A DNA stretch of 39,722 bases from Deltaproteobacteria bacterium. GTDB lineage: Bacteria; Myxococcota; SpSt-1050; JACRCP01. The stretch is from NCBI GenBank assembly GCA_016218965.1, contig JACRCP010000218.1, positions 1 through 39,722 on the forward strand, in the 5' to 3' direction. The notes under the pieces were generated by a model that was given only the letters and a program-made list of their open reading frames with translations, had not been told where the DNA came from and did no database searches. The translations under genes were made by a program, and so were the position numbers. Of the stretch, positions 254-26,948 are shown in pieces; positions within the stretch are counted from its first letter, which is position 1; the number at the start of each line of letters is the position of its first letter.

Positions 254-280
254 GACGTCATTCCTGCACCAAAGGCCGTC

Positions 281-484
281 CGGCGCGCTGAAAGCGCAAT
301 GACTCTTGAGCCTGGGGCAACGCCCCAGGTGTGCAGGGCAAATATTCGGGGAAGCCCTGAAAGGGCGACACACGGAGACCGAGCATCGCAAAGACGAGTC
401 TTGCCCCTTCAGGGCTCGTATTCCGACCGGAATCGCAACCCGGGGCGTTGCCCCGGGCTGAAGAATTGTGCGCCTTCGGCGCGC
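281..484. repeat. Nested palindromic intergenic element between imuB and dnaE2
   Basis: This fills most of the 303-base gene-free stretch 254-556. It contains six short hairpins: GCGCT/AGCGC (285-297), CCTGGGGC/GCCCCAGG (311-329), GCCCT/AGGGC (354-366), a CCCTTCAGGG-type hairpin (about 403-415), CCCGGGGC/GCCCCGGG (439-457) and GCGCC/GGCGC (470-482). The last three mirror the first three in reverse order and complement, so the whole block is one large imperfect inverted repeat made of smaller hairpins. No convincing gene lies in it. The words resemble dispersed intergenic repeats I remember from other uncultured high-GC bacteria, but I could not check that. Confidence 0.8.
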
Positions 485-556
485 AGGCCAGTCCGAACGA
501 ATCAAAAAAACGGACGACGGCAAGCGAAGTTCCGTCGGAATTGGGAAAAGACCAGA

Positions 557-26523: not shown

Positions 26524-26634
26524 GCCTCTGCCCTTCTCTTGAGAAATGATACCACCGCGCTGGGCGTGGGTCCAACGCGGCCGACTGGCGGCCGACGGGC
26601 GCTGGCGTGCCGGATTTCCGAGCACGTTTTCTTG

Positions 26635-26803
26635 CCCTCACCCTGACCCTCTCCCAGGCGGGAGAGGGGAAAAAGGGCCACACAACACCCGCGTCGGAAC
26701 GCGTTTCCCGCGTCCCCGGGTCGGGACCGGACCGCTTTCTTCTCGAGTGTTCTTGCTCCACATGCGTGGTCCCTCTCCCGCTGGGAGAGGGTCAGGGTGA
26801 GGG
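26635..26803. repeat. CCCTCACCCTGACC-type inverted repeat pair
   Basis: The left arm (26635-26669) and right arm (26771-26803) are near-exact inverted copies about 33 bases long, each itself containing a CCTCTCCC/GGGAGAGG hairpin. The 100 bases between show no gene. It occupies the first half of the 490-base gap between the hydrolase gene and batB. Confidence 0.82.
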
Positions 26804-26858
26804 TATCAAACGATGGACGCTGAGAATTGTCCGCCGGTCGACAACCTCGATCCTTCCG

Positions 26859-26948
26859 GGGTGCCACGGACAACCCCAGGTTGTCCGTGAGTGCGGCGCG
26901 GCGGAAATACGGACAAGATCCGTCGAACGGACCTTGTCCGTGGCACCC
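26859..26948. repeat. GGGTGCCACGGACAA inverted repeat with two internal hairpins
   Basis: Terminal arms GGGTGCCACGGACAA (26859-26873) and its exact reverse complement (26934-26948) flank two hairpins. The first is CACGGACAAC/GTTGTCCGTG (26865-26889). The second is CGGACAAG/CTTGTCCG (26910-26940) with an inner TCCGT/ACGGA stem. It lies upstream of batB, directly after the preceding inverted pair. Confidence 0.85.

Follow-up and report, generated by a model that had tools for sequence, protein, structure and literature searches.

In a 39,722-nt window of DNA from a Deltaproteobacteria bacterium (the window being the whole stretch analysed), positions 278–491 are best explained, with a probability of about 85%, as a non-autonomous mobile element with a three-hairpin left arm and a three-hairpin right arm, the autonomous form of which would carry an HUH/Y1 transposase between the arms. 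The reading relies on copies elsewhere in the genome, mirrored arms around a transposase gene, compensatory changes in stems, an ordered left/right pairing, a wide distribution and the expansion of the spacer that holds the element. A broader proposal, favoured with more reserve, is that of an undescribed cross-phylum family of single-strand transposons, in which TnpAY1 subclass 1.2 proteins would act on ordered, inverted three-hairpin ends and, in a manner coupled to the replication fork, disseminate six-hairpin copies that lack the gene. The Rfam motif Acido-Lenti-1 would originate from this family.

Six hairpins in the imuB–dnaE2 spacer and their copies

The element lies, as the initial annotation had placed it, between imuB and dnaE2, in a 303-nt spacer (254–556) of which its six hairpins take up most. 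The 5′ part of dnaE2, encoding an error-prone polymerase, is at 1–253 on the minus strand, the contig starting inside the gene (NCBIfam NF004225, E=1.7e-25 across 84 readable residues). On the same strand, imuB (557–1969) is identified by a Pol IV-type (Y-family) match and by relatives in which its orthologues are followed by dnaE2, and an imuA-like gene of the RecA/ImuA family (1947–2615; match below the curated cut-off) lies upstream of imuB. In the left arm, or ‘T-type’ (278–372, plus strand), supported by compensation and an R1 score of 96.4 bits, hp1 is at 285–297 (GCGCTgaaAGCGC), hp2 at 311–329 (CCTGGGGCaacGCCCCAGG), preceded by an AG foot at 309–310, and hp3 at 354–366 (GCCCTgaaAGGGC). 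After a doublet spacer (373–395) comes the mirrored right arm, or ‘C-type’ (396–491, minus strand; R1, 94.9 bits), with hp3′ at 403–415, hp2′ at 439–457, a CT at 458–459 that is the complement of the AG foot, and hp1′ at 470–482. The six hairpins described earlier are thus all located, and the edges first given (281–484) are right to within a few bases, since conservation among copies spans ~278–491. The claimed mirror symmetry holds for the reversed order of the arms; the halves, however, are inexact mirrors and represent two distinct arm types (hp2 CCTGGGG.. versus CCCGGGG..), with 73 identities in 106 alignment columns between the left arm and the reverse-complemented right arm. Inverted repeats at 304–330/438–464 (89% complementary) and 353–374/395–416 (82%) were detected independently. 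Compared with dinucleotide shuffles, folding of the 216-nt stretch gives z = −6.7 as DNA and −8.1 as RNA, with none of 200 shuffles folding as well.

Other repeats were seen in the window: TGGCRAC tandem repeats of period 7 inside the imuB frame (744–803), like GGCAACTGGCAACT runs elsewhere in the genome (L319); a 30-nt inverted repeat of CCTCACCCTGACCCTCTCCC type (26628–26810); and a GTGCCACGGACAA / TTGTCCGTGGCAC palindrome (26859–26948) that recurs near an arm in L019.

In 12 relatives with imuB followed by dnaE2, the distance between these genes never exceeds ~40 nt, some pairs even overlapping, against 303 nt here; the window copy is therefore best explained by insertion. These relatives thus show the empty site at the level of the operon. 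A precise empty site, a polymorphism or a transposition intermediate did not come to light, and none of the relatives with imuB was close. A BLAST search of the source genome with the window element recovers four more near full-length copies of 75–79% identity and many half copies. A sixth doublet of the window family is found on contig C175, so that the genome holds six doublets plus many single arms, a positive answer to the question of genomic copies raised by the initial annotation. A covariance model of the arm, built from 20 BLAST-chosen arms, matches this genome 44 times at E≤1 and 38 times at E≤2e-4. Two further mirrored six-hairpin doublets, of at least two other families (L315, G000:C381:21180–21640; L321, G000:C321:15700–16080) have unrelated stem sequences and the same hp1-hp2-hp3 order, and therefore the architecture is conserved beyond sequence. 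Copies of the window family in this genome are old; as the best are only 75–79% identical to the window copy, the latter need not be mobile now. Under the proposal, single arms elsewhere would be remnants of the element.

GC-rich hairpins in an operon spacer would also be expected if the imuA-imuB-dnaE2 operon had evolved an intrinsic terminator or attenuator at this place. Yet the same element stands at unrelated loci, relatives lack such a spacer, and the fixed-order three-hairpin arms around transposase genes would be left unexplained, so that this alternative retains hardly any probability. The earlier view that the structure is not a simple terminator agrees with the copies at unrelated loci, by which a simple terminator or attenuator is largely refuted.

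Transposase genes between the arms

The source genome encodes three short Y1 transposases of 149–151 aa, on contigs C139, C220 and C64. The other two are 53–57% identical to the first, and high-copy, near-identical gene-carrying copies are absent from the genome. On C64 and C139 the layout is hp1-hp2-hp3 – gene – hp3′-hp2′-hp1′; on C220 the downstream arm is partly deleted and one downstream hairpin is missing. In sequence, the C64 arms match those of the window family, ACTCTT.AG linker included. The right one has an insertion in the hp2 loop, and the HUH motif of the C64 protein reads DHAH. The window left arm is of the type found 5′ of the C64 gene and the right arm of the type found 3′ of it, and the gene occupies the place that matches the doublet spacer. 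Thus, the window element has the appearance of a C64 element in which 23 nt stand in for the gene. The search for a nearby Y1 transposase proposed in the initial annotation therefore has a positive outcome, and, since arms of these two types enclose an HUH/Y1 gene, the most suitable reading of the doublet is that of a non-autonomous, REPIN-like form derived from an element with a transposase. Elsewhere in the genome, arms adjoin long Y1 transposase genes of another subclass, one truncated and one intact (NHYH type, 322–339 aa; L023, G000:C155:1–465, and L006/L038, G000:C102).

When the three proteins served as queries against named genomes, 80 loci from many phyla were recovered. Among these 80 homologues, the HUH motif ([DN]HxH) occurs in 80/80, Y---Q--HH in 79/80 and WQ in 78/80 (the last count partly biased by the search peptide), and nearly all are of ~150 aa. 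The proteins thus carry the signature of TnpAY1 subclass 1.2, to which they are provisionally assigned by motif content. They do not behave as classical RAYT/TnpA-REP proteins of class 2, having Y---Q--HH instead of Y---NP and reaching at most 22.2 bits with REP_Tyr_transpos against a cut-off of 80. As IS200-type TnpA proteins, they score at or just above the 55-bit cut-off of NCBIfam NF033573, and their closest solved structures are of the ISHp608/ISDra2 type. Plasmids and phages searched for the transposase gave distant matches only.

In the flanks of the 80 loci, the three-hairpin arm is found in 114/161, as against 13/161 for shuffles and 11/146 for distal controls; the stem pairing in this count, as in alignment A3, is partly selected by the search itself. 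With nhmmer, an arm in the right orientation stands beside 66 of the 77 readable genes, on both sides in 51, and in the wrong orientation beside 15–16. Subclass 1.2 has been described as mainly cyanobacterial and from Bacteroidetes, with no REP partner or typical terminal structures and not sharing IS properties (Quentin 2018, PMC6006769). The proteins found here agree with that subclass in their Y---Q--HH, WQ and [DN]HxH motifs and their length (about 148 aa in the subclass), but depart from the published account in their broader range of hosts and in the mirrored three-hairpin arms that accompany most genes. This would provide a DNA partner for a transposase subclass reported to have none. 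The likeness to IS200/IS605 elements (IS608, ISDra2) lies in the nearest TnpA structures, NF033573 and distinct left and right ends. IS200/IS605 ends are small subterminal hairpins (PMC6006769); unlike these, the ends here are inverted and of three hairpins each, and gene-less copies abound.

Individual hairpins and ordered arm pairs as the selected form

Among arms of the source genome, 6 of 18 stem pairs have changed on both sides, which none of 500 shuffles reach; this count uses BLAST-chosen copies and is less biased than that across loci, where 16/18 stem pairs are compensated (397 cells versus 101 shuffled) in an alignment that leans towards structure. The initial annotation had looked to compensatory changes for a decision, with a single copy free of them as the adverse outcome; several copies and compensation are what was found. 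Between the two arms of one element, 101 of 131 differing stem pairs are compensated inside the hairpin, as are 29 of 45 in gene-less doublets.

The last result bears on the possibility that selection maintains a cruciform or long stem of the whole palindrome as architectural DNA, with an incidental link to the transposase. The long stem is indeed the best predicted fold of the window copy, at −66 kcal/mol versus ~−52 kcal/mol for local hairpins only. However, compensation within a hairpin breaks the cross-arm pair, hp3 in Brevifollis is wholly different between arms, and single arms are common; selection on the cruciform is thus very improbable. As the arms are also always unlike, selection acts on the individual hairpins and on the ordered left/right pair. 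Of the two folds first envisaged, the row of six hairpins stands as the selected one, whereas the long stem, though thermodynamically better for the window copy, is rejected as the selected form by the compensation pattern.

Arms are unlike in all 31 scored doublets of three genomes: 6/6 in the source genome, 7/7 in Brevifollis, and 7/7 and 11/11 in two families of G034 (types in the last two genomes judged by eye, with copies that were partial or of mixed family set aside). In the source genome, each doublet of the six, like the gene copy on C64, has one arm with CCTGGGGC and the other with CCCGGGGC. In the main Brevifollis family (7/7), hp3 reads GCGCCgaaGGTGC in one arm and GGCCT...GGCC in the other. 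In one G034 family an arm with a long hp2 is partnered by one with a short hp2 (7/7), and in the second two linker types are paired (11/11). Such ordered pairs of unlike arms imply that the elements move or persist as left-right units. Since the arms are strictly left versus right, unlike the symmetric ends of REPINs, the element can be oriented, which opens to study the movement of an inverted-end Y1 element and its link with the replication fork. In some loci, an extra palindrome lies within the loop of the middle hairpin (L033:1309–1360, L025:1454–1510 and G034 arms of L205 and L207), so that hp2 is longer, with its stem intact.

Just 5′ of hp2 the foot is AG (A 98%, G 93%), with C or T before it and a first position without a conserved G. 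For TnpA-REP systems, the choice of cleavage site has been linked to the final two bases of GTAG (PMC8266576), and by analogy the AG foot is a plausible guide for this choice. A route for recognition, cleavage and movement can be proposed. Exposure of one strand, most probably as lagging-strand template, would let the arms form local hairpins. These hairpins would be recognized by the transposase, probably via the middle one and its [C/T]AG foot, much as TnpA-REP reads GTAG, and the tyrosine of the transposase would cleave and join single strands. The left and right pair would thereby be moved or copied into other intergenic DNA, the window copy having presumably landed in this way in the imuB–dnaE2 spacer. 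On the Kiritimatiellota chromosome G070, clusters with a single arm are oriented by replichore (30/40 consistent, Fisher p=0.002, in one genome and post hoc). About half of its single arms lie between convergent genes, and convergent gene pairs show the same trend, in small numbers. The replichore bias fits a lagging-strand link, to which gene orientation may contribute.

Distribution, Acido-Lenti-1 and relation to REPINs

The main hosts are Planctomycetota, Verrucomicrobiota, Acidobacteriota, Bacteroidota and others. Arms occur in 12/12 named genomes searched, with at least 8–82 each; the complete Kiritimatiellota chromosome (G070, L105) holds 127, and 39 of its 40 single-arm clusters lie outside predicted genes. 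Gene-less doublets consist of a plus arm followed by a minus arm, with gaps of 14–73 nt that are near-constant per family (38 nt five times in L081, ~41 nt in Brevifollis, ~29 nt in G034). Among 58 relatives, arms are present in 4/8 genomes with the gene versus 2/50 without (p=0.002). The arm models match no arms in the strong gene carriers G028, G046 and G075, and arms are present without a strong gene in G014 and G041.

The arms also bear on Acido-Lenti-1 (RF01687), rated a probable RNA of unknown role (Weinberg 2010, PMC2864571). At the gathering threshold the window gives no Rfam hit; RF01687 falls just below it, with 36.0 bits against 37 (E=3.2e-6), at 439–483 on the plus strand, covering hp2′ and hp1′. 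Related arms in other genomes reach 37–57.7 bits, and the RF01687 hits in the tested loci are all inside arms (15/15). Among 146 phylum-mates, RF01687 is found in 4/8 genomes with a strong gene versus 2/138 without (p=5.5e-5; 6.7e-4 with the source genome excluded). The two hairpins and linker of the family correspond, on the opposite strand, to hp2 and hp1 of the arm, and they include CT(A), the complement of the foot. Judged by sequence, Acido-Lenti-1 is most likely the outer part (hp2 and hp1) of the element arm, with the difference that Rfam files it as ‘Gene; sRNA’ and that the element here would be a mobile DNA end with hp3 and a mirrored partner.

This Rfam filing of the two outer hairpins and the 2010 rating support another explanation, a structured RNA acting either as a trans-acting sRNA or as an mRNA processing or stability element between imuB and dnaE2. 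A 2026 paper, according to which little is known of Acido-Lenti-1, suggests a role in protease expression (PMC13298647). In addition, the RNA fold is very stable and any operon transcript would include the element. Nevertheless, a structured RNA is unlikely in view of the presence of the motif tens to >100 times per genome, in mirror image on either side of a transposase gene and in gene-less doublets, the absence of an apparent common host gene beside the motif copies, and the confinement of the tested hits to arms. A secondary effect of the element on mRNA is possible. The mobile-element reading thus provides a testable answer to the nature of a family still discussed in 2026 as a regulatory RNA.

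Contrary to the initial annotation, which had set the structure apart from REP sequences, the element is a REPIN-like doublet with a three-hairpin arm in place of the REP. It resembles REPINs and REPtrons (Bertels & Rainey 2011, PMC3116915; Quentin 2018, PMC6006769) in its gene-less inverted doublets with a short, near-constant spacer, dispersed extragenic copies with single remnants, a cognate Y1/HUH gene with these repeats on either side, compensatory stem changes and a tetranucleotide-like foot ending in AG. It differs from them in its arms, which, instead of the one hairpin and 5′ GT[AG]G foot of a canonical REP, have three hairpins in fixed order and a [C/T]AG foot and are of two distinct types; in a protein with the signature of class 1 (subclass 1.2) rather than a class 2 RAYT; and in its main hosts. 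In TIRtrons (Di Nocera 2013, PMC3733652), too, Y1 genes stand between long inverted repeats with partial self-complementarity, some of which form repeat families, Acidobacteria included; the text consulted describes no three-hairpin arm. Unlike the element, TIRYT proteins are mostly of subclass 2.1, with HTH domains and GGGGWSAS motifs (PMC6006769). A search of openly accessible papers found nothing on three-hairpin arms.

Experiments are feasible in a cultured host, Brevifollis gellanilyticus, which has at least 82 arms. In Verrucomicrobiales, arrays of five six-hairpin doublets adjoin a transposase gene (L081:3122–4652, L059:1034–2242). In G034, doublets (L215, L222) are enclosed by an outer inverted repeat, TATACACATCT ... 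AGATGTGTATA, common to both copies. Finally, a c-di-GMP-I riboswitch (L239:917–992, G014) lies ~120 nt from a six-hairpin doublet.
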